Shown here piece after piece: positions 26,301 to 53,122 of a DNA stretch of 64,000 nt (positions within the stretch are counted from its first letter, which is position 1; every line of letters begins with the position of its first letter). Below the pieces are notes generated by a model. The model saw nothing but the letters and a program-made list of their open reading frames with translations. It did no database searches and had not been told where the DNA came from. Source of the stretch: an uncultured Desulfobacteraceae bacterium (GTDB lineage Bacteria > Desulfobacterota > Desulfobacteria > Desulfobacterales > UBA5852); contig CAJXSL010000001.1 of NCBI GenBank assembly GCA_913060875.1, positions 1,267,398-1,331,397 on the forward strand, given 5' to 3'. Made by a program: the position numbers and the translations under genes.

Positions 26301-26309
26301 CCAGCGGTT

Positions 26310-26833: not shown

Positions 26834-26841
26834 GGGGAGAC

Positions 26842-30775: not shown

Positions 30776-30787
30776 CCGGCAACCAAC

Positions 30788-30803
30788 AGGAAGTTTTATT
30801 GCA
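30788..30803 (+). promoter_or_regulatory. Possible internal sigma-54 promoter before transporter set 2
   Basis: AGGAAG-N5-TTGCA: correct 10-base GG-GC spacing and a perfect -12 half, but a poor -24 half (AGGAAG instead of TGGCAC). It lies 65 bp before the second binding-protein gene. Confidence 0.3.
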
Positions 30804-30867
30804 TTTGAGCGGAATTGCGGAACCGGGGAAAAATGCAACCCCCACATCAATCAGGGAGGGAAAAGGA

Positions 30868-32076: not shown

Positions 32077-32091
32077 TTCATTTGGTTCGGG

Positions 32092-32123
32092 AGGATGCTC
32101 CTTCTTTGGGGGAGGAGCATCCT
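32092..32123 (+). promoter_or_regulatory. Strong hairpin between binding-protein and livH (set 2)
   Basis: AGGATGCTCCT (32092-32102) and AGGAGCATCCT (32113-32123) form a perfect 11-bp stem with a 10-nt loop. There is no T-run. It probably stabilises the upstream message or gives partial termination, raising binding-protein yield. Confidence 0.55.
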
Positions 32124-32152
32124 GAACTGCACAAAGCCAAAGGAAGCTAACC

Positions 32153-34035: not shown

Positions 34036-34757
34036 TGTCTCTTTTAGAGGTAAAACAGTTGACCAAGCGGTTCGGTGGATTGGTTGCCGTCAACAAAATG
34101 ACTTTTGAAATAAATAAAGGAGAGATTGTCGGATTGATCGGACCGAACGGGGCTGGGAAGACCACCGTATTTAATCTGATATCAGGCATCTTCCCTGCTT
34201 CGGAGGGCAATATTTTATTGAATGGGCGCGAGTTGAAACGCATGCCGGCGCACAGACGCAGCCTGGCAGGCATCGGACGCACCTTTCAAGTCGTTCGCCC
34301 TTTTGAAATGACCGTGTTGGAAAATGTGATGGTCCCGGCATTGGCCCGAAACAAAAGCACCAAACTGGCGCGGCAGAAGGCTGAAAAAGTGCTTGAAATG
34401 ATGGGGTTGGATCAGTTGTCGGATAGCGAACCCGGCAATTTGACGCTGGCCCAACGAAAGCGTATCGAAGTGGCCCGGGCGCTTGCTACGGATCCGGAAC
34501 TCCTCCTGCTTGATGAAGTGCTGGCCGGATTAAACCCTACGGAAGTCGCAGAGAATTTGCCCATCATACGTCAAGTCCGTGACAGCGGTGTAACGATCAT
34601 CTTTATCGAACATTTGATGGATGCAATGATGTCCGTATCCGAAAGAGTGCTGGTAATGGATCAGGGCGCGTTGATATCCAGCGGGACACCTGCTGAAGTA
34701 ACCCAGGACGCATGTGTCATTAAAGCGTATCTCGGAGAGGAGGATCCGCAGTGCTGA
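34035..34757 (+). CDS. livG: Liv-type ABC transporter ATPase LivG (set 2)
   Basis: 240 residues. Walker A GPNGAGKTT, the Q-loop TFQVVRPFEMTV, the signature-like LTLAQRKRIEVARAL and Walker B LLLDEVLAGLNP are present. It is coupled to the genes on both sides by overlaps. Confidence 0.92.
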   Translation: MSLLEVKQLTKRFGGLVAVNKMTFEINKGEIVGLIGPNGAGKTTVFNLISGIFPASEGNILLNGRELKRMPAHRRSLAGIGRTFQVVRPFEMTVLENVMVPALARNKSTKLARQKAEKVLEMMGLDQLSDSEPGNLTLAQRKRIEVARALATDPELLLLDEVLAGLNPTEVAENLPIIRQVRDSGVTIIFIEHLMDAMMSVSERVLVMDQGALISSGTPAEVTQDACVIKAYLGEEDPQC

Positions 34758-35455
34758 AAATAGAAAATATTGATTGCTTCTATGGGGATTTCCAGGCCCT
34801 GCGTGATGTTTCCTTGTCGGTTGCGGAAGGCGAAATCGTCGCCCTTTTAGGGCCAAACGCGGCGGGAAAATCGACGACCCTGGCCGCCATCAGCGGTGTA
34901 TTGGGATATCGCAAGGGACAGATTTCTTTCAGGGGGCGCGAGCTCAACGGGGTGAAGGCCGAGAAAATTGTGGAAATGGGCATCGCGCATGTACCGGAGG
35001 GGCGTAAATTGTTCAAAACCCTTACCGTAAAAGAAAATTTGGAAATGGGGGCTTATGTCAAGCATGCCAGAGACCACGTGCCTGAAACCTTGAAACAAGT
35101 CTACGATCTTTTTCCCATCCTTAAGGATCGCACCAACCAGATGGCCGGATCGTTATCCGGCGGTGAGCAGCAGATGTGTGCGATTGCCCGTGGGCTAATG
35201 GCCAAACCTAAATTGCTGATGATCGATGAAATGTCTTTAGGCCTCTCCCCGCTGCTGGCCAAACAGATGTTCCAGATGGTTCAGCAGATTGCAGATATCG
35301 GCATTACCATCCTTTTGGTAGAGCAGCAGGTAAACCATACCATGAAGATTGCCCACACGGCTTACATCATGGAAAAAGGCCACATTGTCATGTCCGGGCC
35401 TACATCCGAACTTGCCGGTAACGAGCATGTAAAGAAGGCTTATTTGGGCATGTAA
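34751..35455 (+). CDS. livF: Liv-type ABC transporter ATPase LivF (set 2)
   Basis: 234 residues from GTG 34751, overlapping livG by 7 bp. Walker A GPNAAGKST, signature LSGGEQQMC and Walker B LMIDEMSLGLSP are intact. It ends the long + strand run that began at 16844; the next 235 bp carry no gene or clear terminator. Confidence 0.93.
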   Translation: MLKIENIDCFYGDFQALRDVSLSVAEGEIVALLGPNAAGKSTTLAAISGVLGYRKGQISFRGRELNGVKAEKIVEMGIAHVPEGRKLFKTLTVKENLEMGAYVKHARDHVPETLKQVYDLFPILKDRTNQMAGSLSGGEQQMCAIARGLMAKPKLLMIDEMSLGLSPLLAKQMFQMVQQIADIGITILLVEQQVNHTMKIAHTAYIMEKGHIVMSGPTSELAGNEHVKKAYLGM

Positions 35456-36174: not shown

Positions 36175-37200
36175 ATGCTTGCGTTTGTGAAATATGGGAC
36201 AGGATCATTTGAGGCCGAGGTTAGAGATATCGCCAAACCGGAACCGAAAGATAACGAGGTGCTGCTGTCCGTTGCCGGGTGCGGTGTCTGCGGCAGCGAT
36301 CTGCATGCCTATCGGTCATCTAAAGGCTACGAGTGGGTTATACCGCCGGTGACATTGGGACATGAATTTGCAGGAACCATTGTCGCCACTGGCAGATCCG
36401 TCCGACATGTGAAAGAGGGCGATCGTGCTGCGGTTATCGGTATTCAAGGATGCGGCCACTGCCCGGTTTGCCGATCGGGCAGTACCAACTTGTGTCTCGA
36501 ACGCCAAGTCATCGGCTTGAACATGGATGGCGGGATGGCGGCCTATGCCGTTGTGGATGCTGCATACCTGGTGCCTATACCCGATTCCCTCGATCCGGTG
36601 ATGGGAGCGCTTATCGAGCCGATCTCGGTGGCCGCTCACGCCATGCGTAAACCCGTGATCCGGCCAGGTGATCGGGTGGTCGTGAGTGGTCCCGGACCCA
36701 TCGGTCTTTTCTGTGGCCTTTTTGCCACTTCAAGCGGTGCCCGCGTTGTCATGGTGGGGGCTGAGGCGGATGCCGAAACCCGCCTTCCATTAGCCCGGCG
36801 ATTGGGGTTTACAACCGTGAATGTTAATCGGGATGCCTTGGATGCAACGCTTGAAACGGCCTTCGAAGGCAGCCCACCAGATCTATGGGTTGAGGCGTCA
36901 GGGGCGCCGCAGGCCTTTATCACAGCCATTGAGAAGGTGCGGGGAGGCGGCAGCTTGGTCATCGTGGGCATGTATGCACAATCGTTTGAATGGAGCCCGA
37001 CACCGTCTGTGAGAGCTGGTCACAGTGTGTTTTTCAGCTATGCATCGATCAGTCGTGATTACCATTTGGCCCTGGATTTGATTGCCGCCGGTTTCATCGA
37101 CCCCACGCAGTTCGCCAACGTATACCCATTGGGGGAAGCCGAAATTGCTTTCAAGGCCGCCCTGTCTGGTAAAACCATAAAACCTGTTTTGGTCCCCTGA
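36175..37200 (+). CDS. Zinc-dependent medium-chain alcohol dehydrogenase 2
   Basis: 341 residues, with GAGGAAA before the ATG. Catalytic ligands Cys39 (GVCGSDLH) and His63-Glu64, structural Cys93, 96, 99 and 107, and the cofactor motif GPGPIGLFCG are present. It differs clearly from Zn-ADH 1. It is followed 43 bp later by a ThDP enzyme, so it may make or remove that enzyme's hydroxyketone. Confidence 0.87.
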   Translation: MLAFVKYGTGSFEAEVRDIAKPEPKDNEVLLSVAGCGVCGSDLHAYRSSKGYEWVIPPVTLGHEFAGTIVATGRSVRHVKEGDRAAVIGIQGCGHCPVCRSGSTNLCLERQVIGLNMDGGMAAYAVVDAAYLVPIPDSLDPVMGALIEPISVAAHAMRKPVIRPGDRVVVSGPGPIGLFCGLFATSSGARVVMVGAEADAETRLPLARRLGFTTVNVNRDALDATLETAFEGSPPDLWVEASGAPQAFITAIEKVRGGGSLVIVGMYAQSFEWSPTPSVRAGHSVFFSYASISRDYHLALDLIAAGFIDPTQFANVYPLGEAEIAFKAALSGKTIKPVLVP

Positions 37201-37243
37201 CAGGACGCCAATTAGAGTGATTACAGCATTGCGAGGAAGGTGT

Positions 37244-38980
37244 ATGACGGCAAAAGACTTCTCTGTTGAAGAGATTGAGGTCACCGAGGCAATCATTCGC
37301 GTTCTGGAAGAATACGGCATCGATTTTGTTTTTGGTGTTCCGGGTGGGAATTCAATGCATCTTTTTGGCGCCTTGAGCCAATGTCGGGAAGTTATCCGGA
37401 CTGTTGCCGTTCGCCACGAATCTTTGGCAGGAGTGATGGCCGAGGTCTACGGACGCTTGACGGGCCGCCCCGGTGTGGTGATGGGGCAGGGGCTCTTCAT
37501 TCTTTCCAATGCCCTGCTGGGCGTCATGGAAGCCAGGATGGGCAGCACGCCGATGCTTGTCATGACAGAGATGTCCGACGGGGCGCCCTTCTCCCACCAT
37601 GCCCCCTACCAGGCCGGCACGGGTGATTACGGCACCTGGGACGCCCCTAAGAGCTTCGGTGCTGTTTCCAAAGAGACATTTGTCGCCCATGCCCCCATTC
37701 AGGCTGTCCAGCACACGCAGACCGCCATTCGAGCAGCCATGCTGGGCCAGGGAGGACCGGTGTCCCTGATCTATCACAGCGAAGCCCTAAAGGGGAAAGT
37801 GGACTCGTCCGGTCAACCTCACCTCTACGCCTCGGCATCTTATGGCCAACCGTATTCACCTTGCACCGGATGGGAGAACATCACCAGGGCAATGAAGGCG
37901 CTGCAAGGCGCGAAGCAGCCGGTCATCATTGCGGGTAACGGCATCCGGCTCGCGAAGGCCTATTCCCAGATGCAACGGTTGGCCGAACTGACCGGCGCCG
38001 GGGTGGTCACAACCTCTGCCGGCAAGGGCGTGTTTCCCGAAGACCACCCTTTGGCTTTGGGCGTTTTCGGCACATTCGGGTTGGCCGCCGCGAATGCATT
38101 TGTCGCCGACGCCGACGTCGTTTTGATTGTGGGCAGCAAGATGTCCCCTAGTGATACGGCTTTCGAGAATACCAAACTCATCGACCCTGCCCGCCAGCAC
38201 CTGATTCAGACTGATATTGAAGGTCGCAACGCTGGATGGACATACCCCTGCGATCAGGTATTGATCGGGGATGCTGCCCGCATTTTGAGGCAGATGAGCG
38301 AAACGGCTGAGAATATTGGTTCCGCATTGCGTGACACCTTGAACAACCGGAAGAGCGCCATCGGGGCGGCGCGTGAAAAATTCGGATTTTTTAATGAGCC
38401 CGATTATACGTCGGATGAGCTTCCGATGCTTCCCCAGCGTGTGATTAGCGAACTTCACCAAGCCATTGCCGATGATGCCTTTGTCAGTTGTGACGCTGGG
38501 GAAAACCGGCTTTTTATGACCCGTTACTTTCAAACCAAGGGTAACGGGAACTTCCTTTCGCCCGCCGCCACTGGTGGCATGGGCTATGCCATCCCCGCCG
38601 CGATGGCCGCTAAGCTGCTTTACCCCGAACGCCAGGCGATTGCCGTGTGTGGCGACGGCGGGTTTACCATGTCGATGAACGGCATGCTGACGGCGGCTGA
38701 GGAAAACATCCCGATTGTCACCCTGGTTCTCAACAATAGCGCCTACGGTTGGGTAACTCACTACCTCGAGGATAAGGCCATTGCAGCCGAATTCCCTGAC
38801 ATGAAGGCGGCGGACATCGCCCGTGCCATGGGATGCCAGGGGGTTCGGGTGGAAACTCCCGACCAGCTCAAGGAGGCTTTAAGACTGGCTCTGGGGGGCA
38901 ATCAACCGACCGTGCTGGACGTCATGTGTTCCAAGCGTATTAGCTATCGGGATATTCTTTCACCGTTGGCAAAGGGATAG
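37244..38980 (+). CDS. Acetolactate-synthase-like thiamine-diphosphate enzyme
   Basis: 578 residues from ATG 37244 (GAGGAAGG upstream). It has the three-domain layout of the family: an N-terminal pyrimidine domain with GVPGGNSMHLFG and the cofactor-activating Glu in RHESLAGVMAEVYGRLTG, a central domain, and a C-terminal pyrophosphate domain with CGDGGFTMSMNG...NNSAYGW. True acetolactate synthase is less likely because no small regulatory subunit or isoleucine-valine genes are near. Related members cleave acyloins, 2-hydroxyacyl-CoAs, sulfopyruvate or cyclic diketones. Confidence 0.85.
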   Translation: MTAKDFSVEEIEVTEAIIRVLEEYGIDFVFGVPGGNSMHLFGALSQCREVIRTVAVRHESLAGVMAEVYGRLTGRPGVVMGQGLFILSNALLGVMEARMGSTPMLVMTEMSDGAPFSHHAPYQAGTGDYGTWDAPKSFGAVSKETFVAHAPIQAVQHTQTAIRAAMLGQGGPVSLIYHSEALKGKVDSSGQPHLYASASYGQPYSPCTGWENITRAMKALQGAKQPVIIAGNGIRLAKAYSQMQRLAELTGAGVVTTSAGKGVFPEDHPLALGVFGTFGLAAANAFVADADVVLIVGSKMSPSDTAFENTKLIDPARQHLIQTDIEGRNAGWTYPCDQVLIGDAARILRQMSETAENIGSALRDTLNNRKSAIGAAREKFGFFNEPDYTSDELPMLPQRVISELHQAIADDAFVSCDAGENRLFMTRYFQTKGNGNFLSPAATGGMGYAIPAAMAAKLLYPERQAIAVCGDGGFTMSMNGMLTAAEENIPIVTLVLNNSAYGWVTHYLEDKAIAAEFPDMKAADIARAMGCQGVRVETPDQLKEALRLALGGNQPTVLDVMCSKRISYRDILSPLAKG

Positions 38981-39087: not shown

Positions 39088-39825
39088 ATGAATCAAGTTA
39101 TCGAGGTAATGAAACAACACCGCTCCATTCGCAAATTTGAAGAAAAACCCGTGGAAGAAAACCTGATCAGGACGATTCTGGAAGCGGCCCAACATGCTTC
39201 CACTTCCAATTTTGTTCAGGCCTACAGCGTCATCAATGTCGTGGACACGTCTAAACGCGCACAGATCGCGGAACTGGCGGGTCCCCAGCCGTGGATCGAG
39301 CAGTGTCCCCTGTTTCTGGTTTTTTGTGCGGATCTTAAACGGCACGATAAGGCTTGCGGCATGTGCGGCATGGAAATGGTCAAAGGCTACACAGAGCAGT
39401 TCATCATTGCAACGGTGGATGCTGCCTTGGTGGCGCAAAACACGATGCTGGCAGCTGAATCCCTGGGCCTTGGCGGCGTCTACATCGGCGGCATCCGAAA
39501 TGATCCGGAAAAAGTCTGCCATCTTTTGGATATTCCCGATCTTGTCTATCCGGTCTTTGGCATGTGTCTGGGCTACCCGGCTGAGGATCCGCAACTCAAG
39601 CCGCGCCTGCCATTGGACATCGTGCTGAAGGTGGACCGCTATACCGATGCAACAGAACAAGTTCAGCTGTCCTCCTATGATCAAGTGTGCTGCGACTACT
39701 ACAATCAGCGCGAATGCGCCAATCGGGACGACAACTGGACCCAGCAGATGTCCCGGCTGATGTGCAGGGAGATGCGGCCGCATATGAGGGCTTTTCTCGA
39801 AAGCAAAGGGTTTCCCATGAAATGA
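39088..39825 (+). CDS. Nitroreductase-family flavoprotein (NfsA/FRP-like)
   Basis: 245 residues. It starts VMKQHRSIRKFEEKPVEE, the FMN-binding nitroreductase opening, followed by ASTSNFVQAYS and GLGGVYIGGIRNDP. Members use FMN and NAD(P)H to reduce nitro groups, quinones or enones. The C-terminal 50 residues are rich in Cys and Arg. The physiological substrate is unknown; it lies directly before the first AOR gene (26 bp). Confidence 0.85.
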   Translation: MNQVIEVMKQHRSIRKFEEKPVEENLIRTILEAAQHASTSNFVQAYSVINVVDTSKRAQIAELAGPQPWIEQCPLFLVFCADLKRHDKACGMCGMEMVKGYTEQFIIATVDAALVAQNTMLAAESLGLGGVYIGGIRNDPEKVCHLLDIPDLVYPVFGMCLGYPAEDPQLKPRLPLDIVLKVDRYTDATEQVQLSSYDQVCCDYYNQRECANRDDNWTQQMSRLMCREMRPHMRAFLESKGFPMK

Positions 39826-39851: not shown

Positions 39852-41624
39852 ATGAAAGGCTATTTTGGAAAGATACTTGTCATCAACCTGTCCGACCGAA
39901 CCTATCGGGATGAAACGGTCGATGAAGCCGTTTATCGCGATTTTCTTGGCGGCAAGGGGCTTGCCACCCACTTGCTTCTCGAGAAGAATAGGGCGGGGGT
40001 CGATCCGTTTTCTCCTGAAAATCATCTCATCTTTGCCCTAGGGCCCATGAATGACACCCGTATTTGGGGGTCGAGCCGCTGGGGTGTCTACACGAAATCG
40101 CCCCAGACCGGGATATTTTCGGAATCCTATTCCGGCGGTCGTGTGGCGGAACCCATGAGCCGCACCGGTTACGATGCGTTTATCCTTGAAGGGGCGTCCG
40201 AACATCCCGTCTATGTTGAAATTGGCGATGACGGGGTCCGTTTTCATGATGCCGCCGAGATCTGGGGTGCCGATGCCTATACCGCCCAGGACATGGTGGC
40301 GGCCAGGGTGGACCGCAAAGATGCCGGGATCCTGGTGATTGGGCCCGCCGGCGAGAAGCTGGTTCGATTTGCAGTGATTGCCAATAACTACTGGCGGCAT
40401 GCCGGGCGATCCGGAGCAGGCGCTGTCATGGGAAGCAAAAAAGTCAAAGCGCTGGTATTTCACGGATCACAGAAACGTGAAGTGGCTGATCCGGAAGCCG
40501 AGAAGGCTTTCGTGAAAGAGTGGGCACAGAAATCCAAAGATCTTCCTGTGACCAAATTTTTTAAGAACCTGGGAACACCCGGAATGGTGGATATGCTGAA
40601 CGAGGTCAATGCCTTTCCCTCCCGATATTGGTCTCAGGGCTCCGTGGAACACCGCGAGGCCATCAATGCCCACACGCTCAACAGGGACTTCACGGTCAAG
40701 CCCAACGCGTGCCATCGATGTTTTATGGCCTGCGGCCGCATGACCACGATACGCGAAGGCCGTTTCAAGGGCTTGAAAATCGAGGGGCCCGAATACGAAA
40801 CCATCTTTGCGTTCGGAGGATTGTGCATGGTCGAAACCTTGGATGAAATCATGCACTTGAACGATGTATGCGATCGCCTGGGGATGGACACGATTACCGG
40901 CGGCAACCTTGCTGCTTTTGCCATAGAGGCCAGTATGCGGGGTAAAATCGAGGAAAAGCTCACTTACGGCGATTCGGATGCGATTGCGGACCTTTTAACC
41001 GCCATTGCCAACAGGGAGGGGATTGGCGCTGTGCTGGCGGAGGGTATCCGTCATGCCGCCAAGTCCTGGGACATGGAGGATGTCGCCGTCCATGTGAAGG
41101 GCATGGAGCCGGCCGGATATGACCCGCGCGTGTTGAAGAGTATGGCATTGGCCTATGCCACCTCGGACCGAGGCGCCTGCCACGCGCGGACGACGGCTTT
41201 CAAGGGTGAATTTGCCGGCCTGGTGGAATTCGACCAGATTGAAGGTAAGGCCGCCATGCTGGTGGATTTCGAGGACCGCCTGACCCTGATGGATGCCATG
41301 ATCGGCTGTCGCTTTTATCGAGATCTCTATCTATGGGATGAATTCGCTCAGATCATCAAAATCATCACGGGAAGAGAGATGGACAAATCCGGTTTGCAGA
41401 AGATCGCGGCGAACATTCGGGATGCCACCCGCACATTCAACCTGCGGGAAGGCATCACCGACAAGGACGACAATTTGCCGGATCGCTTTTTTGAGCAGGG
41501 GATCGGACCGGACAATAAGGTACTCGCAAGAGAAGATTTCGCCAAGATGAAGAAAGATTATTACGAACTAAGGGGGTGGAGTGACCGGGGTATCCCCACA
41601 ATGGCAGAAATTGACTATCAATAA
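39852..41624 (+). CDS. aor: Aldehyde:ferredoxin oxidoreductase 1 (tungsten type)
   Basis: 590 residues from ATG 39852 (GGGAG upstream). The N-terminal AOR domain runs from GKILVINLSDR through FLGGKGLATHLL and SGRSGAGAVMGSKKVKAL-like blocks. The [4Fe-4S] cysteines are Cys287, 290, 294 and 486, nearly the same numbers as in Pyrococcus AOR (288, 291, 295, 494). AORs oxidise aldehydes to acids, or reduce acids, with ferredoxin and a W-bis-molybdopterin cofactor in the cytoplasm. It is paired with an LhgO-type oxidase gene. Confidence 0.93.
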   Translation: MKGYFGKILVINLSDRTYRDETVDEAVYRDFLGGKGLATHLLLEKNRAGVDPFSPENHLIFALGPMNDTRIWGSSRWGVYTKSPQTGIFSESYSGGRVAEPMSRTGYDAFILEGASEHPVYVEIGDDGVRFHDAAEIWGADAYTAQDMVAARVDRKDAGILVIGPAGEKLVRFAVIANNYWRHAGRSGAGAVMGSKKVKALVFHGSQKREVADPEAEKAFVKEWAQKSKDLPVTKFFKNLGTPGMVDMLNEVNAFPSRYWSQGSVEHREAINAHTLNRDFTVKPNACHRCFMACGRMTTIREGRFKGLKIEGPEYETIFAFGGLCMVETLDEIMHLNDVCDRLGMDTITGGNLAAFAIEASMRGKIEEKLTYGDSDAIADLLTAIANREGIGAVLAEGIRHAAKSWDMEDVAVHVKGMEPAGYDPRVLKSMALAYATSDRGACHARTTAFKGEFAGLVEFDQIEGKAAMLVDFEDRLTLMDAMIGCRFYRDLYLWDEFAQIIKIITGREMDKSGLQKIAANIRDATRTFNLREGITDKDDNLPDRFFEQGIGPDNKVLAREDFAKMKKDYYELRGWSDRGIPTMAEIDYQ

Positions 41625-41671
41625 TAACAGACCGTTATTGTACGGGAAAATCGAAACATTTGAATCCGGGA

Positions 41672-42880
41672 ATGATGATGCGAACATACGATTTGGTAAT
41701 TATTGGCGGCGGCATTGTCGGGGTCTCTAGCGCCTGGCAGCTTAAGCAGCGTTATCCTGATGCGGCCATTCTTCTCGTTGAAAAGGAAAACGCTCTCGCT
41801 CGACATCAGACGGGACACAACTCCGGGGTAATCCACGCCGGCGTATATTACCAACCTGGCAGCCTGAAAGCAGAATTCTGCAAACGCGGCGCTGTCCAGA
41901 CCATTGAATTCTGCCAAGCGTACAACTTACCTTTTGAACAGTGCGGGAAGCTCTTGGTTGCCACCGACGCCATCGAGTACGAACGCATGGCCGCATTGGA
42001 AGACCGTTGTGTTCAAAACGGCATCGAAATAGAGCGGCTTGATGAAAAGGCGCTCAATGCACGTGAACCAAACATTGTCGGTCTGGGAGCGTTATGGGTG
42101 CGGGCGACCGGCATTACGGATTATCTACAAATCACCGAAAAGATGGCCGATCTTTTTACCGCCCAAGGGGGCGAGATAAAGACGGGATCTGCCGTAAAGC
42201 GCATCGAGGAAAACCGCCATTCGGTGCATATCCGTATAGGGTCTGAGGCCATTGAAAGCCGGTATCTGCTGGCATGCGGCGGCCTTATGGCGGATCGATT
42301 GGCAAAGATGGTCGGTATCGATGTGGATTTTCAGATCATCCCCTTTCGAGGTGAATACTATCGTCTGCCGAAGCGGCTCGATACCATCGTTAAACATTTG
42401 ATTTACCCGATCCCTGATCCCGAACTGCCGTTCCTGGGTGTTCACCTGACAAGGATGATCGACGGTGCCGTTACGGTTGGCCCCAATGCTGTGCTGGGGT
42501 GGAAGCGGGAAGGGTACGGGCGCTTCAACTTTGATTGCAAAGACAGCTGGGACACGTTGACATTCCCGGGGTTCTGGCCGGTCATCCGGGCGAATCTGCT
42601 ATCGGGCTTGTCCGAAATGAAGGACTCGCTTTTCAAAACCGGTTATCTCAAGCGGGTCAGAAAGTACTGCCCCGGGATTGAACGCGATGATCTTCTCCCG
42701 TATCCGCCCGGTATCCGGGCCCAAGCGGTCAAGGCGGACGGCACCCTGGTTCATGATTTTCTGTTTGCCGAGAGTGACCGCTCGTTTCACGTTTGCAATG
42801 CCCCTTCACCGGCCGCCACATCGGCCATGCCGATCGGCGAATATATCGCCGATCGTATCGCTGAAAAGTTCGCGATGTGA
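41672..42880 (+). CDS. lhgO: L-2-hydroxyglutarate oxidase/dehydrogenase LhgO
   Basis: 402 residues from ATG 41672; two more ATGs follow at once. Similarity to E. coli LhgO is strong throughout: IIGGGIVGVSSA (FAD), HQTGHNSGVIHAGVYY, IPFRGEYYRLP, LIYPIPDPELPFLGVHLTR and CNAPSPAATSAMPIG. LhgO oxidises L-2-hydroxyglutarate to 2-oxoglutarate and passes electrons to the membrane quinone pool. A related 2-hydroxyacid is possible in this context. Confidence 0.9.
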   Translation: MMMRTYDLVIIGGGIVGVSSAWQLKQRYPDAAILLVEKENALARHQTGHNSGVIHAGVYYQPGSLKAEFCKRGAVQTIEFCQAYNLPFEQCGKLLVATDAIEYERMAALEDRCVQNGIEIERLDEKALNAREPNIVGLGALWVRATGITDYLQITEKMADLFTAQGGEIKTGSAVKRIEENRHSVHIRIGSEAIESRYLLACGGLMADRLAKMVGIDVDFQIIPFRGEYYRLPKRLDTIVKHLIYPIPDPELPFLGVHLTRMIDGAVTVGPNAVLGWKREGYGRFNFDCKDSWDTLTFPGFWPVIRANLLSGLSEMKDSLFKTGYLKRVRKYCPGIERDDLLPYPPGIRAQAVKADGTLVHDFLFAESDRSFHVCNAPSPAATSAMPIGEYIADRIAEKFAM

Positions 42881-43006
42881 CGTATAATGGAGATGAAATA
42901 CGTTTGCCTGTCGGGTATCGGGGGCTGACCGAAATCTTCCATGAGGATCCAGTCATCGTGACGATGGCGCTGGGCTCCGCCCTTATGAAAACGAAAGGCG
43001 TTTCAG

Positions 43007-43891
43007 ATGACGATGCAGAATGGAATCACCCATCGTAGCAAGGTCCAGGAAGGACTGACAGAAAACCAACATAGATGGTTGTGTGACAGAGCGCAGTTCG
43101 TGCGACTGGAAGCGATTCGTTTGATCGAGATCGCCAAAGTGGGGCACTACACATCGGTGTTTTCATGTGCCGAGATTTTGGCCGCGTTGTTCTATGATGT
43201 CATGTCGCTTCGCCGCGGTGAACCGCACTGGCAGGATCGCGACCGATTTCTTCTGGGCAAGGGGCACGCCGCGGTCGGACTTTTTCCTATCCTGGCTGAT
43301 TTCGGTTTCATAACTCGGGAGATGCTCGAAAGCTATACACGACTTGGCAGCCCCCTGGGTGATCATCCGGACATGACGAAAGTACCGGGCATTGATTTCA
43401 GTTCCGGATCCCTTGGCCATGCCCTTTCCGTTAGCGCGGGCATGGCGCTCGGCGCTCGCCGCCTTCATAAGGATTTCACGGTTTTTACACTGCTCGGGGA
43501 TGGCGAAATGCAGGAGGGACAAGTCTGGGAAGCCGCTCTTTTTGCGGCCCATCACCGGTTGGGGCGTCTCATTGCGATTGTCGACCGGAATGGTTTCCAG
43601 CTTGACGGGCGGGTGGACGATGTCATCGGCATTGAGCCTTTATCGGCAAAATGGCGGTCCTTCAACTGGGAAGTCCACGAGGTGGATGGCCACAATGTCG
43701 CTGATCTCACAAGCCTTCTGCGTCAGCTGAAAGCGGATAAGGTACGTGATAAGCCCGTCTGCGTCATTGCCCAGACGGTTAAGGGCAAAGGCATTCCCTA
43801 TATGGAAACGGAACCCGGCTGGCATTTAGGCTACTTGGCACCTGAGGATGCCCAGAAAGCAATCAATCATATCAAGGGGCAGGAGGGTTGA
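43007..43891 (+). CDS. Transketolase, N-terminal subunit
   Basis: 294 residues. This is the ThDP pyrophosphate-binding half: GHYTSVFSCAEILAAL, GKGHAAVGLFP, GSLGHALSVSAGMALG, and GDGEMQEGQVWEA with VDRNGFQLDG. Split transketolases occur in many bacteria and archaea. It transfers two-carbon ketol units between sugars or related hydroxyketones. Four bases overlap the C-terminal gene frame, so the halves are coupled. No other pentose-phosphate gene is nearby, suggesting a catabolic role. Confidence 0.9.
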   Translation: MTMQNGITHRSKVQEGLTENQHRWLCDRAQFVRLEAIRLIEIAKVGHYTSVFSCAEILAALFYDVMSLRRGEPHWQDRDRFLLGKGHAAVGLFPILADFGFITREMLESYTRLGSPLGDHPDMTKVPGIDFSSGSLGHALSVSAGMALGARRLHKDFTVFTLLGDGEMQEGQVWEAALFAAHHRLGRLIAIVDRNGFQLDGRVDDVIGIEPLSAKWRSFNWEVHEVDGHNVADLTSLLRQLKADKVRDKPVCVIAQTVKGKGIPYMETEPGWHLGYLAPEDAQKAINHIKGQEG

Positions 43892-43893
43892 CC

Positions 43894-44898
43894 ATGGACA
43901 AAACTATAAGCTCCGATTCATGGCAATATCGAGCTTTGAACGCCATTACGCCCGGACTGAACTACCTGTCTGATGCATTGATCGATCTCGTCGAGCAGGG
44001 CCATCCGGTTATGGCCGGGTCGGCTGATCTCCAGTATTCGAACGGGCTGAACAAGTTTGCGGCATGCTATCCGGAGCGCTACATCCAGTTCGGCATTTCA
44101 GAGCAGAATATGGTGTCGGCGGCAGCAGGACTTGCCACAGTGGGGCATATGCCGTTTGTGGCGACATTCGCATCCTTTTTGGGACTGCTATGCTGCGAAC
44201 AGATTCGAATGGACGTCGCCTACTGCAAGCAGCCGGTTCGCTTAATCGGACATCATACCGGCATTTCTCTGGGGTTTTACGGAACCTCTCACCATGCAAC
44301 CGAAGATATTTCCACCATGCGTGCTATTTCGGGATTGACGGTGATATCGCCGGCGGACGGCCCCTCTCTTGCGGCGGCCATTCGTGCTTCCGTGGATTGG
44401 CCGGAGCCGATTTATTTCCGGATTGGGAGGGGGCGTGAGCCGGATGTTTATGCCCAAGATATGACATTTCAAATCGGTACGGCCATTGAGCATAGCCAGG
44501 GCGATGATTTGACCATCATTGCGTGTGGCATGCCGGTAAAAGAAGCTCTCGATGCGGCGAATGTGCTCAGAAGCGATGGCATATCGGTTGGTGTAATGGA
44601 TATGGCGACCCTCAAACCTCTTGACCGCGAAGCGGTCCTGCGCGCGGCGCAGCGGTCCGGGCTGTTGATGACCGTAGAAGAGCACAACATCATTGGTGGT
44701 TTAGGGGCTGCTGTTGCGGAGGTGCTGGCCGAGGAGGGATGTGGTACCCGGCTGCTGCGGCATGGTATCCGGGACGAATATAGTTTGATCGCGCCACCCA
44801 ACCACCTTTATGCTCATTATAAACTTGACGCGGCGGGTATCGAGGCCATGGCCCGAGACGTGTTGAAAAACAGCAGGGTGGGTTCACAACAATCTTGA
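43894..44898 (+). CDS. Transketolase, C-terminal subunit
   Basis: 334 residues from ATG 43894, preceded by AGGAGGG inside the end of the N-terminal gene. It holds the pyrimidine-binding domain with catalytic Glu in QFGISEQNMVSAAAGLA and the C-terminal domain ending in MTVEEHNIIGGLG. With the previous gene it forms one functional transketolase. Confidence 0.9.
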   Translation: MDKTISSDSWQYRALNAITPGLNYLSDALIDLVEQGHPVMAGSADLQYSNGLNKFAACYPERYIQFGISEQNMVSAAAGLATVGHMPFVATFASFLGLLCCEQIRMDVAYCKQPVRLIGHHTGISLGFYGTSHHATEDISTMRAISGLTVISPADGPSLAAAIRASVDWPEPIYFRIGRGREPDVYAQDMTFQIGTAIEHSQGDDLTIIACGMPVKEALDAANVLRSDGISVGVMDMATLKPLDREAVLRAAQRSGLLMTVEEHNIIGGLGAAVAEVLAEEGCGTRLLRHGIRDEYSLIAPPNHLYAHYKLDAAGIEAMARDVLKNSRVGSQQS

Positions 44899-44957
44899 CC
44901 CAGATAACCATCAATTAAAGGATATGGCCGTCCTATAGAATTGTTGGAATATCCAAT

Positions 44958-46079
44958 ATGGAAATCGGGACTACAATCATTGGCGCCGGTGTCATTGGGC
45001 TTGCCATTGCCGCGGAAATTTCGAAACAGGACCGGAATATCTATGTCATAGAGAGCAACGCCAGCTTTGGTAACGAGATCAGTAGCCGCAGTGGAGAGGT
45101 CGTGCATGCAGGCGTCTACTATCCCACTGATTCGCTTAAGGCGCGCCTGTGTGTGGAAGGCAACCACCGCTTGCGCAAACTGTGCGAATCCAGGCAGATC
45201 CCGCTCCGCTTGTGTGGAAAAATTATCGTGGCCACGAGCGAGGAGGAGGTGCCCCGATTAGAGGCGTTGGCCCGGCGTGCGCGAGACAATGGCGTGAACG
45301 GCTTGGATCTTCTCTCGGGGTCCGCGTGCCGCAAACTGGAACCGCAGCTTAATGCTGTGGCCGCCCTTCATGTGACGACCGCCGGAATTATCGACAGTCG
45401 ACAGCTGATTCGGCATTTCGTTGCGCAGGCCGGTATGAATGCGGTTTCCTTCGTCTACCAGACGCGGATTCTGAGCGTTGTCAAACGTGAACCCGGTCGA
45501 TACGTCGTCCAAGTCGTCTACCCGGATGGGGAAACGGAAAAATTCGTCACCCAAAGGATCATCAACGCCGCCGGGCTCGATGCGGATCAAATTGCCGCCG
45601 GCATGGGGCTCGACATTGATCGCCAGGGCTATCGCCAATATTTTTGGAAGAGTGATTACTACGCCGTTCAATGGCCAAAAGACACGCTCACGCGGCTGAT
45701 TGATCCTGTCCCCGAACTTCATGTGCCAGGATGCGATGTGAGAACCCTGCCCGATTTAAACGGCCGTCTCAAACTGAGGCCAAGGTCGACCTATATGCCC
45801 GAACGCGAGTTGAACTACACCGTCGACCCCATGCGGCTGGACGCCTGTTTCAATGCTGCGCGACGCTACCTGCCAAACCTCAGACGCGAGGATATTCGTC
45901 CGGAAATGGTTGGTATCCAACCAAAGCTGCAGCGGCCGGGTGATTCCGAACGTGATTTTGTCATTCAGGAAGAATCGGAGAACGGACTTCCTGGTGTCGT
46001 CAATCTGGCCGGTATTGAGTCGCCGGGTCTGACGGCGTGCATGGCCATCGCAAAATATGTCAGCAATCTGATCGCATGA
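44958..46079 (+). CDS. LhgO-like FAD-dependent oxidoreductase (second copy, diverged)
   Basis: 373 residues. FAD motif IIGAGVIGLAIA and the family loop SSRSGEVVHAGVYYPTDSLKA align with LhgO, but the HQTGHNSG and PSPAATSA blocks of the first copy are replaced (SRSGE; GIESPGLTACMAI). It is therefore a distinct branch, probably a different 2-hydroxyacid or amine oxidase-type dehydrogenase. It directly precedes the second AOR gene, mirroring the first AOR-LhgO pair. Confidence 0.83.
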   Translation: MEIGTTIIGAGVIGLAIAAEISKQDRNIYVIESNASFGNEISSRSGEVVHAGVYYPTDSLKARLCVEGNHRLRKLCESRQIPLRLCGKIIVATSEEEVPRLEALARRARDNGVNGLDLLSGSACRKLEPQLNAVAALHVTTAGIIDSRQLIRHFVAQAGMNAVSFVYQTRILSVVKREPGRYVVQVVYPDGETEKFVTQRIINAAGLDADQIAAGMGLDIDRQGYRQYFWKSDYYAVQWPKDTLTRLIDPVPELHVPGCDVRTLPDLNGRLKLRPRSTYMPERELNYTVDPMRLDACFNAARRYLPNLRREDIRPEMVGIQPKLQRPGDSERDFVIQEESENGLPGVVNLAGIESPGLTACMAIAKYVSNLIA

Positions 46080-46114
46080 ACACAAATTTTAACCCGCAGC
46101 ATAAGGATTGACCC

Positions 46115-47881
46115 ATGCATGGTTTTCATCAGCGGCTGTTGTCCATCGACATGAACAATCACACATTCTCCATCGAAGCGATTCCGGATGATTTAATAAA
46201 AGATACCCTGGGAGGCAAAGGATTGGCGTCTTATCTGCTTCTCAAACATAATCCCCAAGGGGTCGACCCTTTCGATGGCGCGAATCACCTCATTTTTACG
46301 CTTGGGCCGGTGACTGACACTGTGGTGTGGGGCGGAAGCCGGTATGGTGTTTATAGCAAATCACCCCAAACAGGATTTTATTCAGAATCCTACTCGGGTG
46401 GCAAAGCCGCAGAATATATGTCGCGTTCGGGCTTCGATGCTTTTATGATTTATGGAAAGTCCAAAACACCGGTTTGGCTCGAGATTAATGAAAAAGGTGC
46501 CACTTTTCACCATGCGGAAGAGCTTTGGGGCAAAGAAACCTACGAAGCCGAAGATTACGTTAAGGCCTGGATTAAAGAACATCGTCCTCAGGTAAAAGGG
46601 TGTGCCGCTTTGACGATCGGACCCGGCGGAGAAAATGGCGTGGCCTTTTCCGTCATTGAAAATGATTACTGGCGGAGTGCGGGAAGAACCGGTGCCGGGG
46701 CGGTTATGGGATCCAAAAATATCAAGGCCGTTGGATTCTGGGGCCATCGCAAACGGGAGGTTGCCGATCGTAAGAAATTGTTGGACATGGCCAAGAAATT
46801 TTCAAACGAATTTAAAACACATCCCGCCACCGATGCATATAAAAGCATGGGGACACCGATGATGGTCGACATCATGAGTTCAGTGGGCAGCTTCCCAACG
46901 CGTTATTGGCACCAGGGAAAAGCTCCACATCAAGACGCGATCAATGCCAAAGCGTTGCATGAAAGGTGCACCGTAAAACCGAACGCTTGCCGCAAGTGTT
47001 TTATCGCTTGCGGGAGGCTCTCGACGGTGAAGTCGGGGCGGCATGCCGGTTTGAAAATGGAAGGACCGGAGTATGAGACGATTTATACTTTTGGTGGGTT
47101 GTGCATGGTCGACAACATCGAAGATATTGCCTACCTGAACGATATTTGTGATCGACTTGGCATCGACACGATCAGTGCCGGTAATTTGGTCGCAATGACC
47201 ATCGAAGCGTCTAAACAAGGAAAAACTGATTATGCCATCGATTATGGGCAAACAGATCAAATTGCCGCACTGTTGCATGACATTGCCAACTGCAAAGGGA
47301 TTGGGAAAATTCTTGCCAAAGGCATAAAATCTGCGGCTATAGAGCTTGGCATGGAGGATCAGGCGATACATGTAAAAGGGTTGGAGCCGGCGGGGTACGA
47401 TCCGCGGGTACTCAAAGGTATGGGACTTTCGTACGGAACTTCTCCAAGGGGCGCATGCCATCTGCGAACGACGTTTTACAAACCGGAACTTGCCAAAATG
47501 ATTCCCCCTCAGCAAATTGAAGGCAAAGCCAGGATGCTCGTCGACTGGGAGAACCGGCTCATCATTTTTGACTGTCTGGTTCTTTGTCGTTTTTATCGCG
47601 ATTTTTACCAATGGGAGTCTCTTGCGGATTTGATTGGCACCATAACCGGAATGGAATGGGACAAGGCGGCATTGTGGGCCGTCGCATCTCGGGTATCCGA
47701 CAATACCAGGCGGTTTAACCTCAGAGAAGGCCTAAAACAAACGCATGATAAACTGCCCAAGAGATTTTACACCGAGCTTTTGCCGGAAACAGGTGAAGTG
47801 ATCACTGAAGGTGATATGGATCAATTGCTCGTCGACTACTATGCCGAAAGAGGATGGGATCAAAAGGGGTTGGTGGGATAG
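46115..47881 (+). CDS. aor: Aldehyde:ferredoxin oxidoreductase 2 (tungsten type)
   Basis: 588 residues. It has the AOR layout with cluster cysteines Cys292, 295, 299 and 491, and the blocks LGGKGLASYLLL, SPQTGFYSESYSGG and GRTGAGAVMGSKNIKA. It is a close relative of the AOR at 39852 but clearly diverged along its length, and with a different N-terminus (HGFHQRLLSIDMNNHTF). Two AORs in one cluster suggest two different aldehydes or opposite reaction directions. Confidence 0.93.
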   Translation: MHGFHQRLLSIDMNNHTFSIEAIPDDLIKDTLGGKGLASYLLLKHNPQGVDPFDGANHLIFTLGPVTDTVVWGGSRYGVYSKSPQTGFYSESYSGGKAAEYMSRSGFDAFMIYGKSKTPVWLEINEKGATFHHAEELWGKETYEAEDYVKAWIKEHRPQVKGCAALTIGPGGENGVAFSVIENDYWRSAGRTGAGAVMGSKNIKAVGFWGHRKREVADRKKLLDMAKKFSNEFKTHPATDAYKSMGTPMMVDIMSSVGSFPTRYWHQGKAPHQDAINAKALHERCTVKPNACRKCFIACGRLSTVKSGRHAGLKMEGPEYETIYTFGGLCMVDNIEDIAYLNDICDRLGIDTISAGNLVAMTIEASKQGKTDYAIDYGQTDQIAALLHDIANCKGIGKILAKGIKSAAIELGMEDQAIHVKGLEPAGYDPRVLKGMGLSYGTSPRGACHLRTTFYKPELAKMIPPQQIEGKARMLVDWENRLIIFDCLVLCRFYRDFYQWESLADLIGTITGMEWDKAALWAVASRVSDNTRRFNLREGLKQTHDKLPKRFYTELLPETGEVITEGDMDQLLVDYYAERGWDQKGLVG

Positions 47882-47898
47882 GGGGCTTGGTTTTCGGG

Positions 47899-48801
47899 AT
47901 GGCAACCTTATCTCCTGTAACCTACGGCAATTTGATGCAAACGCTTCGGCAGCGCGCAGATCATGGAAACGATTTGCACCAGATGCGAAAAGACCTGCAT
48001 GCCTTTGGCGCGCTGTACCCGCCTCATCCCAATGTCACCATCCAGGCGATGACGGTCGGTGGCCGGCCGACCGAAATGCTCACCCCTGCCGATCATTACA
48101 AAAAGCTCGTTCTCTTGTACTTGCATGGCGGTGGTTTTGTGATGGGGTCCATTCAAACCCACCGCCAGTTAGCCTCCCATCTGGCTGCCGCGACGGGTGT
48201 AAGGACAATGGTTGCAGAATATCGCCTGGCCCCTGAAAATCCCTTTCCTGCCGCCCTAGAGGATGCCCTGAGCGTCTATACATCACTTTTAAGGAACGGT
48301 TTCGATCCCTGCCACATTGGTTTGGCGGGTGATTCAGCCGGCGGCGGCTTATGTGTTTCCCTAATGACGCGTCTCAAGCAGGAAAAGTTACCGCTGCCCC
48401 GAGTATGCTGTCTCTTGTCACCCTGGGTAGATCTCTCCATGCGAGGCCCTTCGTGGCATCGCAATGCCGATCAGGACGTTCTGGTAAAAAGCAATGATGC
48501 GAAACGAATGGCGGCATTGTATCTGAATGGTAAAGATCCGCTTGATCCCCTGGTCTCGCCCGTTTACGCTGATTTGGAGGGGATCCCTCCTTTACTTATC
48601 CACGTAGGATCCGGTGAAGTTTTGCTGGACGACGCGGTCTCCCTGCATAAACGGGCAACTCACTACGGCGTGACCTCCCATCTCGACATCTGGGACGGTA
48701 TGCCGCATGTCTGGCACTTCATGTCGCCCGTATTGAAGGAAGGCCGAGTGGCATTGCAGCAGGCCGCGGCATTCATCACCGCCCACATGCCGGGAGGGTA
48801 A
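47899..48801 (+). CDS. Alpha/beta hydrolase, hormone-sensitive-lipase type
   Basis: About 300 residues from ATG 47899 (start uncertain; an in-frame ATG at 47854 overlaps the AOR gene). Oxyanion motif HGGGFVMG, nucleophile GDSAGGG, Asp in VGSGEVLLDD and His in GMPHVWHF complete the catalytic set. Esterases of this class cleave short acyl esters or lactones. It would fit removal of an ester or lactone in the catabolic route. Eight bases separate it from the next gene. Confidence 0.85.
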   Translation: MATLSPVTYGNLMQTLRQRADHGNDLHQMRKDLHAFGALYPPHPNVTIQAMTVGGRPTEMLTPADHYKKLVLLYLHGGGFVMGSIQTHRQLASHLAAATGVRTMVAEYRLAPENPFPAALEDALSVYTSLLRNGFDPCHIGLAGDSAGGGLCVSLMTRLKQEKLPLPRVCCLLSPWVDLSMRGPSWHRNADQDVLVKSNDAKRMAALYLNGKDPLDPLVSPVYADLEGIPPLLIHVGSGEVLLDDAVSLHKRATHYGVTSHLDIWDGMPHVWHFMSPVLKEGRVALQQAAAFITAHMPGG

Positions 48802-48808: not shown

Positions 48809-49549
48809 ATGGCTTTGGGGCTTCACCAAGCGGAGGCGGACCGTCCGCTTTATATCGTTGCGGTCCAGTCCGCTGAACTCGAACAGTGGCTGTCCCGGGT
48901 CGGTATCGAAGCGGGTGATCCTGTTGTCAAATCTACTGTTGCCTCGCCGATTTCATCTGTCTGGGTAACAGGAGAATGGGGACAAATGATCATAAGTCCC
49001 GGTGTGGCCGTCGGCATGCTGGTTGAAAACCCTAACGGCCTTACGCTGCCTTTGGATCAATTGCCGGTTGGCATAACGGGAAAATTGGTGGACTATAAGC
49101 GCTGTGACGCCAGCAGACGTTTTTGGGATTTCACCAATATTAGGATCGGATCCTGTCTGCATGTCCGGAAAAAAATTGACCGGCTGGATTTTTATCTTTT
49201 CGGGGGCGGCAAAAGCCTGCTAATTGATGATGAAACGGCTTTTCATGCTTGGATGAATGAGGGTGGACGGTGGCTTCAACTTGGCGCTTTTCCGATCGGG
49301 CGCACCTTCCGCCCGCAGCGATTTACGGGCTGCAGAAATGCCATCCCTGTTTTCGAACGAATCAAATCCATAGCAGTCCCCTCGGTGACCATCGGTAAAA
49401 TCGCCATGCGCAGCGCTGCAGGGACGGAATTAAACGGCGTTGTGATAAATACACCGACTGGAAGACGGTTGTGGTTGTCCTCAAAAGAGGCCCAAAGAAT
49501 CAAGGTTCGACTCTGTGATATTTGCTGGTCGTGCGGGATTTGCAGATAG
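48809..49549 (+). CDS. Unknown protein with FeoA-like repeats and C-terminal CxxCxxCxxC
   Basis: 246 residues, with GGGAGGG ten bases before the ATG. Three segments (about 14-73, 78-150, 154-233) resemble each other and the small SH3-like FeoA fold; segments two and three share an LP(V/I)G opening, a central Cys (98, 175) and a late basic strand. The chain ends with four cysteines at exact three-residue steps (236, 239, 242, 245), a likely Fe-S or metal site. No signal peptide is seen. It may serve the adjacent AOR/hydrolase genes as an electron carrier, metal chaperone or regulator. I do not recognise a named family. Confidence 0.6.
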   Translation: MALGLHQAEADRPLYIVAVQSAELEQWLSRVGIEAGDPVVKSTVASPISSVWVTGEWGQMIISPGVAVGMLVENPNGLTLPLDQLPVGITGKLVDYKRCDASRRFWDFTNIRIGSCLHVRKKIDRLDFYLFGGGKSLLIDDETAFHAWMNEGGRWLQLGAFPIGRTFRPQRFTGCRNAIPVFERIKSIAVPSVTIGKIAMRSAAGTELNGVVINTPTGRRLWLSSKEAQRIKVRLCDICWSCGICR

Positions 49550-51979: not shown

Positions 51980-53122
51980 TTATTCTTTTGGCGTGCCTAT
52001 CACTTCGGCAAACATTTCCATGTCCCAAACTTTGCGTTCGGCAATATTTTGGCGGAGTTTGATAAAATCAATTGTACTACTACCGGTTATTTTTTTGGTA
52101 TTGAAGGCCCCGAATCCGAGGAACGCTTCGCCTCCCATGTTGGCGGCCAACCAGTGGCGATTCGGGTTTTTCATGATGTCCCAGAAAAACTTTTTCTTCT
52201 GCCGAATACCGTCGATCGATTTGATCAGGCATCCAGGAAAAAGATTTGCGAAGGTCCACACTATTTTTCTGACCTCCTTGTCGAGAAGCTCGAAATCCGA
52301 ATTTGCTTGATGGGCTTTGACGATAGCCTTAGCTTCTTTGAAGGCCTCTCCGGTTTTATATTCTCCGTAGACGATCTCGCCGTCATCGATATACCTGTCT
52401 GTTACAATCATGGGATTGCGCACCCACTTCCCATCGATTTTCAATACGGGGACCACTTTGCTGATTAAATTTTTCATCTTCATTTTGTAAGCGGACCACA
52501 TCTCACAAGAAATACAGTTCCACATGGCATCTTCTATACCGAGGTACCAAGGCAAAAAATCGGTTGATCCCCCATCCGGAGCACTGCCGTGTTTGGAACC
52601 TGCTTGACCGAAGATCGCCAGATCCGAACTTATCGCCAGATCGCAAGCCATACCGATTTCCTGGCCACCCGCGACACGCATCCCGTTGACCCGACAGATC
52701 GTTGGCTTTTTACACATTAAAATAGAATCGACCATATGGTTGAATAACTCCATGTACTGGCCATATTCATCGGGTCGACGACTGTAATATTCGCTATATT
52801 CCTTTGTGTTACCGCCTGTACAGAACGCATACGGACCGGTTCCGGTAAACACCGCGGCCACCACGCTACGGTCCACTGAGGCGTTTTCAAAACCGGCAAT
52901 CACGTCTTTAACCATCTGCGTAGTATAGGAGTTGTATTGTTTGGGGTTGTTGAGCCGAATCCAAGCCTCATAGAGGCCGTCGATTACTTTCCCTTCCGGA
53001 TCGGTGAGGGGGCGTTTTTCATATACGACACACGGATCTTCCTCATCCGTTTTCCATTGTTTTCCAACATGAATAAAATGATCCTTTTGTTCATTTTCCC
53101 GTGGCATCCAATCTAAAGCCAT
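51980..53122 (-). CDS. bamA: 6-oxocyclohex-1-ene-1-carbonyl-CoA hydrolase (BamA/Oah)
   Basis: 380 residues, the usual length. It is a crotonase-fold ring hydrolase that opens the 6-oxocyclohexene-carbonyl-CoA ring in the anaerobic benzoyl-CoA pathway. Typical blocks are RLNNPKQYNSYTTQMVKDVI, FCTGGNTKEYSEYY, RVNGMRVAGGQEIGMACDL and KHGSAPDGGSTDFLPWYLG. The name is shared with the unrelated outer-membrane factor BamA. No reductase, dehydrogenase or ligase of the pathway is adjacent; a sigma-54 promoter and a two-component system lie upstream. Probably induced by aromatic compounds. Confidence 0.93.
   Translation of the reverse strand: MALDWMPRENEQKDHFIHVGKQWKTDEEDPCVVYEKRPLTDPEGKVIDGLYEAWIRLNNPKQYNSYTTQMVKDVIAGFENASVDRSVVAAVFTGTGPYAFCTGGNTKEYSEYYSRRPDEYGQYMELFNHMVDSILMCKKPTICRVNGMRVAGGQEIGMACDLAISSDLAIFGQAGSKHGSAPDGGSTDFLPWYLGIEDAMWNCISCEMWSAYKMKMKNLISKVVPVLKIDGKWVRNPMIVTDRYIDDGEIVYGEYKTGEAFKEAKAIVKAHQANSDFELLDKEVRKIVWTFANLFPGCLIKSIDGIRQKKKFFWDIMKNPNRHWLAANMGGEAFLGFGAFNTKKITGSSTIDFIKLRQNIAERKVWDMEMFAEVIGTPKE

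Follow-up and report, generated by a model that had tools for sequence, protein, structure and literature searches.

A divergent split transketolase between two aldehyde:ferredoxin oxidoreductases in an operon-like gene run of an uncultured Desulfobacteraceae bacterium

Why should two aldehyde:ferredoxin oxidoreductases (AORs) and two flavoenzymes stand like mirror images around a two-gene transketolase? The question is raised by the genome of an uncultured Desulfobacteraceae bacterium (GCA_913060875.1), in a stretch of 64,000 nucleotides (contig CAJXSL010000001.1, positions 1,267,398 to 1,331,397) referred to here as the window. An earlier note, made from the DNA alone, described the block as AOR–LhgO–split transketolase–LhgO-like–AOR and proposed a route in which ketol transfer, aldehyde oxidation and 2-hydroxyacid oxidation are used together. 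The observation itself is confirmed: the open reading frames (ORFs) and family matches fit the gene identities and coordinates, and the copies are clearly diverged (AOR1 and AOR2 52.6% identical, LhgO1 and LhgO2 25.9%). The interpretation is partly supported. Far from being a self-contained mirror unit, the block makes up the distal portion of a long operon-like run; its most notable part is the transketolase, with LhgO2 second. Its components are the following.

39852–41624, + strand: AOR1, tungsten aldehyde:ferredoxin oxidoreductase family (ORF coordinates, AFOR_N/AFOR_C, tree)
41660–42880, + strand: LhgO1, predicted L-2-hydroxyglutarate dehydrogenase (curated model, six substrate-site residues)
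42881–42928, + strand: probable scar, 3' end of a lost GabD-type succinate semialdehyde dehydrogenase (SSADH) gene (match MEMKYVCLSGI at 42887–42919)
43007–43891, + strand: TKN, N-terminal chain of split transketolase (transketolase models; T where E. coli has R91)
43888–44898, + strand: TKC, C-terminal chain of split transketolase (G at R358, Y at D469; E411 and H473 kept)
44958–46079, + strand: LhgO2, flavoenzyme of the DAAO family whose substrate pocket is altered; to judge from its residues, probably not an L-2-hydroxyglutarate dehydrogenase
46115–47881, + strand: AOR2, aldehyde:ferredoxin oxidoreductase family (AFOR_N, PDB matches, tree)

TKN and TKC match the N- and C-terminal halves of transketolase models, with scores under those models' full-length cut-offs. 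The residues that we take to have thiamine diphosphate (ThDP) and catalytic roles in transketolase are all kept (H26, H66, H100, G114, D155, E160, N185, H261, E411 and H473). At the acceptor site, the canonical R358, D469 and R91 are replaced by G, Y and T, both here and in the congener G003, which shares the block; S385, H461 and R520 are retained. R91, R358 and D469 are kept in E. coli TktA and in 5/5 canonical split transketolases compared, including a second split transketolase of the same genome. In the acceptor pocket, R358 presumably serves phosphate binding and D469 recognition of the alpha-hydroxyl. Because R358, D469 and R91 are changed, the acceptor would be unphosphorylated and would lack an alpha-hydroxyl, and the pocket gives the impression of a natural adaptation to simple aldehydes that carry no phosphate. 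An excerpt of PMC5073344 describes, for E. coli transketolase, a salt bridge between D469 and R91 and a contact of S385 with the phosphate of the substrate. The engineered E. coli variant D469Y, which has the same residue at 469 as the block enzyme, is reported in an excerpt of PMC3657141 to act on propanal with a specific activity 8.0 ± 0.5 times that of the wild type and to show a reversed enantioselectivity (68% R versus 58% S). Whereas that variant was made in the laboratory, the block enzyme occurs in nature; it departs from the canonical residues at R91 and R358 as well, and is known from its sequence.

In a transketolase tree the block enzyme stands beside a group of FGQAG-type transketolases (84/80), and both, with the divergent transketolase L176, are set apart from the canonical enzymes (100/99). 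At R91, R358 and D469 the FGQAG-type enzymes have N, A and A in 11/11 distinct sequences (13 rows, of which L200/L184 and L201/L179 are the same genes; L156 was dropped, no TKN being found), and L176 has Y, R and L. The best solved match of TKC is the split transketolase of Carboxydothermus hydrogenoformans (PDB 6yaj, E 3.9e-65), which is also a two-chain enzyme, but its motif GEDGASHQ aligns with GFYGTSHH in the block enzyme. FGQAG-type split transketolases (L200:745-7135, L167:5734-15684, L169, L179-L181, L201) lie near class III aminotransferases and proteins of 254–260 aa; three of these proteins were compared with Pfam, giving SCP2 above the cut-off (24.2, cut-off 21.3), SCP2 just under it (20.5) and nothing, respectively.

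The description of both flavoenzymes as 2-hydroxyacid-type holds for LhgO1. It scores 588.5 bits on the L-2-hydroxyglutarate oxidase model (cut-off 299), matches the Drosophila L-2-hydroxyglutarate dehydrogenase (PDB 8w75) at E 2.5e-91 and retains all six residues, S H Y L H R, by which the fly enzyme binds 2-oxoglutarate (S88, H92, Y289, L299, H302 and R393, according to an excerpt of PMC10726252). It looks like a true L-2-hydroxyglutarate dehydrogenase. For LhgO2 the description fits poorly: it scores 200.1 bits on the same model, under the cut-off, and has G H D C R Q at the six sites, so that, unlike the fly enzyme, it lacks most L-2-hydroxyglutarate-binding residues and retains the catalytic His alone. 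The other LhgO2-type homologues aligned (38–48% identity) have S H Y L H R in 7/7 cases, and among 29 other alignment rows S88 and H92 are invariant, Y289 and H302 occur in 27 and R393 in 26. In 3dme, the nearest solved match of LhgO2, the corresponding positions are occupied by Y, H and R. LhgO2 of the window thus appears to have lost its substrate-carboxylate residues with the catalytic His kept. Its pocket has probably kept changing, because in the G003 enzyme (N H Y L G R) two of the six sites are altered too, and differently. The ratio of nonsynonymous to synonymous substitution rates (dN/dS) of LhgO2 against G003, 0.133, speaks against plain decay.

The mirror itself is real as a palindromic gene order, yet every gene lies on the + strand, hence there is no inverted repeat; the run extends beyond the block on either side, and G003 lacks the symmetry. 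There, a 482-residue SSADH (TIGR01780 723.7 bits, cut-off 646.35; 64.7% identical to E. coli GabD) is encoded between LhgO1 and TKN. The 126-bp LhgO1–TKN gap of the window starts with RIMEMKYVCLSGIGG-stop, where MEMKYVCLSGI can be aligned with the C-terminal LEMKYLCMAGI of the G003 SSADH, and the gap DNA aligns with the G003 SSADH DNA over 42 columns with two gaps. Among random 126-bp stretches of the window, some of which may overlap the gap, an equal or better score was reached by 5/5000 against the last 25 SSADH residues and by 1/2000 against the whole SSADH. Most simply, the window lineage would have lost the SSADH gene, leaving the mirror-like order; loss is preferred over insertion in G003 because insertion would leave no scar. 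The symmetry is therefore probably accidental, a by-product of gene loss. Other aldehyde dehydrogenases are encoded in the genome, the best of them at 50% identity.

The two AORs also point away from a simple mirror. AOR1 matches AFOR_N and AFOR_C above both cut-offs; AOR2 matches AFOR_N above cut-off and is matched by PDB 9mqx and 1aor over nearly its full length. A C-x2-C-x3-C motif plus a later Cys, which we take to be the cluster cysteines, is seen in AOR2 as C292, C295, C299 and C491, invariant in 5/5 rows and Cys also in 9mqx. By itself the AOR pair is only mildly unusual, because with 12 AFOR_N matches in a genome of 5.88 Mb about 0.18 pairs less than 8 kb apart are expected by chance. 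Relatives were sought in named genomes, where 300 were found and the best 80 loci kept (23/80 shorter than 11.7 kb). In a tree of 96 rows, made by a quick method and with long branches outside an 84-row subfamily (L167 and L170, having no AOR longer than 480 aa, were left out), AOR1 pairs solely with its G003 orthologue. AOR2 groups with its counterparts in G003 and Desulfosarcina cetonica (support 100) inside a 71-row set (SH-aLRT 97) that excludes AOR1. Outside G003, the nearest AOR2 relative among the best 80 loci is the D. cetonica enzyme (72%). By this tree AOR1 and AOR2 are not sisters, and the pair appears to have been assembled, not duplicated in place.

The neighbours of related AORs offer a clue to substrate. 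Within 5 kb, a GabT homologue occurs at 15/80 loci, a gene for an Fe-type alcohol dehydrogenase (Fe-ADH) at 23/80 and Liv permease or ATPase genes at 30/80. The GabT homologue is the same-strand AOR neighbour in 12 loci (gaps −4 to 458 bp); 11 of the 12 are 44–47% identical to E. coli GabT, the one in L127 29%, and the two run against NCBIfam both score above the TIGR00700 cut-off. The AORs of these pairs belong to the same subfamily as those of the block (56–59% identical to AOR1 or AOR2), but their partner is an aminotransferase, where the block has LhgO and transketolase. Such pairs suggest that in these genomes succinate semialdehyde derived from gamma-aminobutyrate may be oxidised by a tungsten AOR. 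Because GabT homologues adjoin them, the AORs in that part of the subfamily could reasonably be expected to act on succinate semialdehyde. For AOR1 and AOR2 this substrate serves as a lead. The clear same-strand pairs are those of L107, L108, L110, L114, L115, L116, L118, L121, L124, L125 and L130.

How far is the arrangement conserved? The LhgO2 search covered 58 relatives, and the TKC search 389 order-level and 247 phylum-level genomes. In these and the AOR search the full block was found in one genome besides the window's, the congener G003. From E1a, far upstream of the block, to orf246, downstream of it, the gene order is retained there, with short gaps and 54–92% identity. Seven genes from AOR1 to orf246 have dN/dS values of 0.048–0.252, indicating purifying selection; that of TKN is not computable, dS being saturated. 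All measured genes but one have a dS above 1: that of the gene for an acetolactate synthase (ALS)-like enzyme (37217–38980) is 0.68, and those of the other 13 measurable genes 1.19–2.60. Either recent exchange or strong codon constraint would account for the low value.

Elsewhere the parts occur separately. LhgO2 homologues are found at 71% in G003 with block genes, and at 39–50% in seven genomes with no block genes in the stretches read. TKC has a match at 1e-75 in 44/389 order-level genomes, with more than 50% identity only in G000 and G003; among the phylum-level genomes its best match outside its own genome is 49%. A transketolase, LhgO1 or SSADH gene lies within 5 kb of an AOR at one locus out of 80 (L053, which is G003), and an LhgO2-like gene at 2/80. 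Orthologues of LhgO1 occur in 19/194 order genomes; in 17 of these, a congener among them, no AOR, transketolase or SSADH was matched in the neighbouring 1.5 kb or so (less at contig ends), and in one of them a GabT homologue lies near LhgO1. In three other congeners (80–85% complete), neither TKC at 1e-75 nor the ALS-like enzyme at 1e-130 gave a match. The neighbourhood search proposed earlier, with absence of the set from every other genome as the outcome that would count against the route, thus found one same-genus genome, G003, and no other; the idea has just escaped. The block looks like an addition within this genus, because most of the upstream core occurs elsewhere without it and the three congeners lack the TKC and ALS-like matches.

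The run to which the block belongs is made up of these further features.

16829–35455, + strand: upstream core with E1a, E1b, E2 and E3 (acetoin/2-oxoacid dehydrogenase type), two Liv-type ABC transporters, VOC protein, two SDRs, Zn-ADH and Fe-ADH
36175–37200, + strand: ADHzn2, Zn-dependent alcohol dehydrogenase (family matches)
37217–38980, + strand: ALS-like ThDP enzyme of the acetolactate synthase/pyruvate oxidase kind (no listed NCBIfam model above cut-off)
39088–39825, + strand: nitroreductase, 26 bp 5' of AOR1 (NF008033 291.3 bits, cut-off 223)
47854–48801, + strand: hormone-sensitive-lipase type esterase (28 bp overlap with AOR2)
48809–49549, + strand: orf246 (no Pfam family; 54% identity in G003)

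On the + strand the core is followed by NIPSNAP, ADHzn2, the ALS-like gene and the nitroreductase, then by the block, the esterase and orf246. From the nitroreductase to orf246 the gaps are, in order, 26, 35, 126, −4, 59, 35, −28 and 7 bp; wider gaps occur farther upstream, for example 235 bp 5' of NIPSNAP. The layout of the block is operon-like, and its genes are probably cotranscribed. Scans gave 15 promoter-like sites (10.6 ± 3.6 in shuffles) and 10 terminator-like sites (15.3 ± 4.1), with no clear excess of either. On the − strand 5' of E1a (12674–16437) lie LipB, a DhaR/AcoR-like sigma-54 regulator and LipA, the complex's own lipoate supply. A 6-oxocyclohex-1-ene-1-carbonyl-CoA hydratase of anaerobic aromatic degradation is encoded at 51980–53122 on the − strand (TIGR03200 556.6 bits, cut-off 464.45).

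Most of the upstream core is found elsewhere without the block. Among 291 genomes, ALS-like orthologues at 57–62% occur in four outside the genus, three of them from one genus. One contig of G393 (genus g32) carries the regulator, E1a, E1b, an E3-like ORF, parts of both Liv sets, VOC, SDR1, the ALS-like gene, ADHzn2, Fe-ADH, SDR2 and ADHzn1, partly in another order and orientation than in the window; in the stretches read, AOR1, LhgO1, transketolase, LhgO2, AOR2 and esterase were not found beside it. G368 and G441 have parts of the same core, which in G368 is adjoined by a 36% AOR. Among the AORs listed for G307, G368, G393 and G441, no full-length one exceeds 38% identity to AOR1, and one 264-residue piece reaches 45%. 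The nearest solved match of the ALS-like enzyme is BbmA; cyclohexane-1,2-dione hydrolase, considered as an identity for it, is not among the eight solved sequences matching up to 1e-45. In two further genomes (L055 and L094) a VOC protein adjoins an AOR2 relative. L055 also has E1a/E1b/E2/E3 at 72/75/57/55%. Each of the two genomes has an ORF some 430 aa long, the two being alike; the L055 copy matches no NCBIfam model at 1e-40.

Known pathways resemble the block in part. In the E. coli glaH–lhgD–gabD–gabT operon LhgO lies beside GabD, as it does in G003 and as it probably did, to judge from the scar, in the window's ancestor. Transketolase and AOR were not seen in the 8 kb of E. coli read, whereas the block has both. 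GlaH needs oxygen. The block, in which the ORFs fall into other families, has neither the GlaH dioxygenase nor GabT; for GlaH the search covered no other part of the genome. In Desulfococcus biacutus, acetone induces a COG0028 ThDP enzyme, an SDR and a Zn-dehydrogenase (excerpts of PMC4103992). By comparison of the descriptions, acetone activation of that kind was rejected for the window: the D. biacutus cluster has a methylmalonyl-CoA-mutase-like enzyme, and the main text of the paper makes no mention of aldehyde ferredoxin, 2-hydroxyglutarate or acetoin. In open-licence literature nothing was found joining split transketolase with aldehyde ferredoxin oxidoreductase or with a gene cluster, or joining aldehyde ferredoxin oxidoreductase, transketolase and Desulfobacterota.

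The explanation we favour, tentatively and with less than even confidence, is that the block forms the distal part of a catabolic cluster and a module for plain aldehydes, perhaps succinate semialdehyde, from which an ancestral SSADH has been lost. The ancestral order would have been AOR1–LhgO1–SSADH–TKN–TKC–LhgO2–AOR2–esterase, the SSADH then being lost in the window lineage. The block would handle short aldehydes from the upstream ThDP/acyloin-type core: TKN/TKC would move a C2 ketol unit, with an aldehyde partner lacking phosphate and alpha-hydroxyl, for which succinate semialdehyde may be the best single candidate. The AORs would oxidise aldehyde to acid with ferredoxin as acceptor; LhgO1 would oxidise L-2-hydroxyglutarate to 2-oxoglutarate on its own account, and LhgO2 a different hydroxy compound. 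The direction of flux is likewise conjectural. Several points weigh against this explanation. The block is carried by just two genomes, so its conservation tests one lineage. Loss of D469 may signal a different ThDP reaction instead of a different acceptor: DXP synthase models give TKC a score of 155.5 bits, and the variants L, T, S and A at position 469 were drawn from natural variation over 17 ThDP enzyme types (excerpt of PMC3657141). Three phosphate-side residues remain in the transketolase. A promoter-like site just 5' of TKN (42861–42888), of a kind whose count is not clearly above that in shuffles, means that TKN onwards might be expressed apart from the earlier genes. The SSADH itself is lost from the window, though aldehyde dehydrogenases at up to 50% identity remain in the genome. 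Fe-ADH and Liv genes are commoner than GabT beside AOR relatives, and none of the 11 clear GabT-pair AORs groups closely with AOR1 or AOR2; succinate semialdehyde is therefore one choice among several.

It is also possible, if doubtful, that the genes are a loose collection sharing an operon and no pathway, with the AORs detoxifying aldehydes leaked from the core, LhgO1 acting in metabolite repair and the transketolase and LhgO2 serving other ends. The LhgO1 orthologues with no AOR, transketolase or SSADH gene close by, the separate distribution of the AOR, LhgO and transketolase families and the presence of most of the core without the block in G393 all fit this; the order kept in G003 despite high dS, and the alteration of both the transketolase and LhgO2 pockets, do not. 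The single route of the earlier note, with paired enzymes for ketol transfer, aldehyde oxidation and 2-hydroxyacid oxidation, has on its side an operon-like run conserved in G003. It is nevertheless improbable and stands unproven: the AOR pairing is no local duplication, LhgO2 lacks most 2-hydroxyacid-binding residues, the symmetry is broken in G003, and independent genomes lend no support, as no second lineage with the gene set was found, LhgO1 has no AOR, transketolase or SSADH within about 1.5 kb in 17/19, TKC exceeds 50% in 2/389 and most of the core occurs elsewhere with no block in the stretches read.

Sugar or sulfosugar catabolism by an ordinary split transketolase, of the pentose phosphate type or like SqwGH of sulfoquinovose breakdown (likened by description only), is very improbable. 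Transketolase models do match TKN/TKC best, and a 6-deoxy-6-sulfofructose transketolase pathway exists (excerpt of PMC11659671), but R358 and D469/R91 are gone, even if S385, H461 and R520 remain, and no sulfosugar or sugar-phosphate enzyme was recognised among the annotated neighbours. An ordinary pentose-phosphate role in particular is unlikely, given the changed residues and the separate canonical split transketolase of the genome. Local duplication of an AOR–LhgO pair around the transketolase would explain the palindromic order but has almost no chance of being right. It is contradicted by the quick tree, in which AOR2 lies in the 71-row set without AOR1, by the low LhgO1/LhgO2 identity and by the same-strand orientation.

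The favoured explanation of the block as an aldehyde module has a broader form, which we consider unlikely: that a natural transketolase subfamily, from which the residues reading phosphate and alpha-hydroxyl are gone, uses plain aldehydes such as succinate semialdehyde and is coupled to ferredoxin-reducing AORs in anaerobes. If true, nature would already have transketolases like the D469 mutants of engineers. Relatives of sulfate reducers may, by the GabT–AOR pairs, use tungsten AORs on succinate semialdehyde. A striking gene symmetry, for its part, can be a by-product of gene loss.

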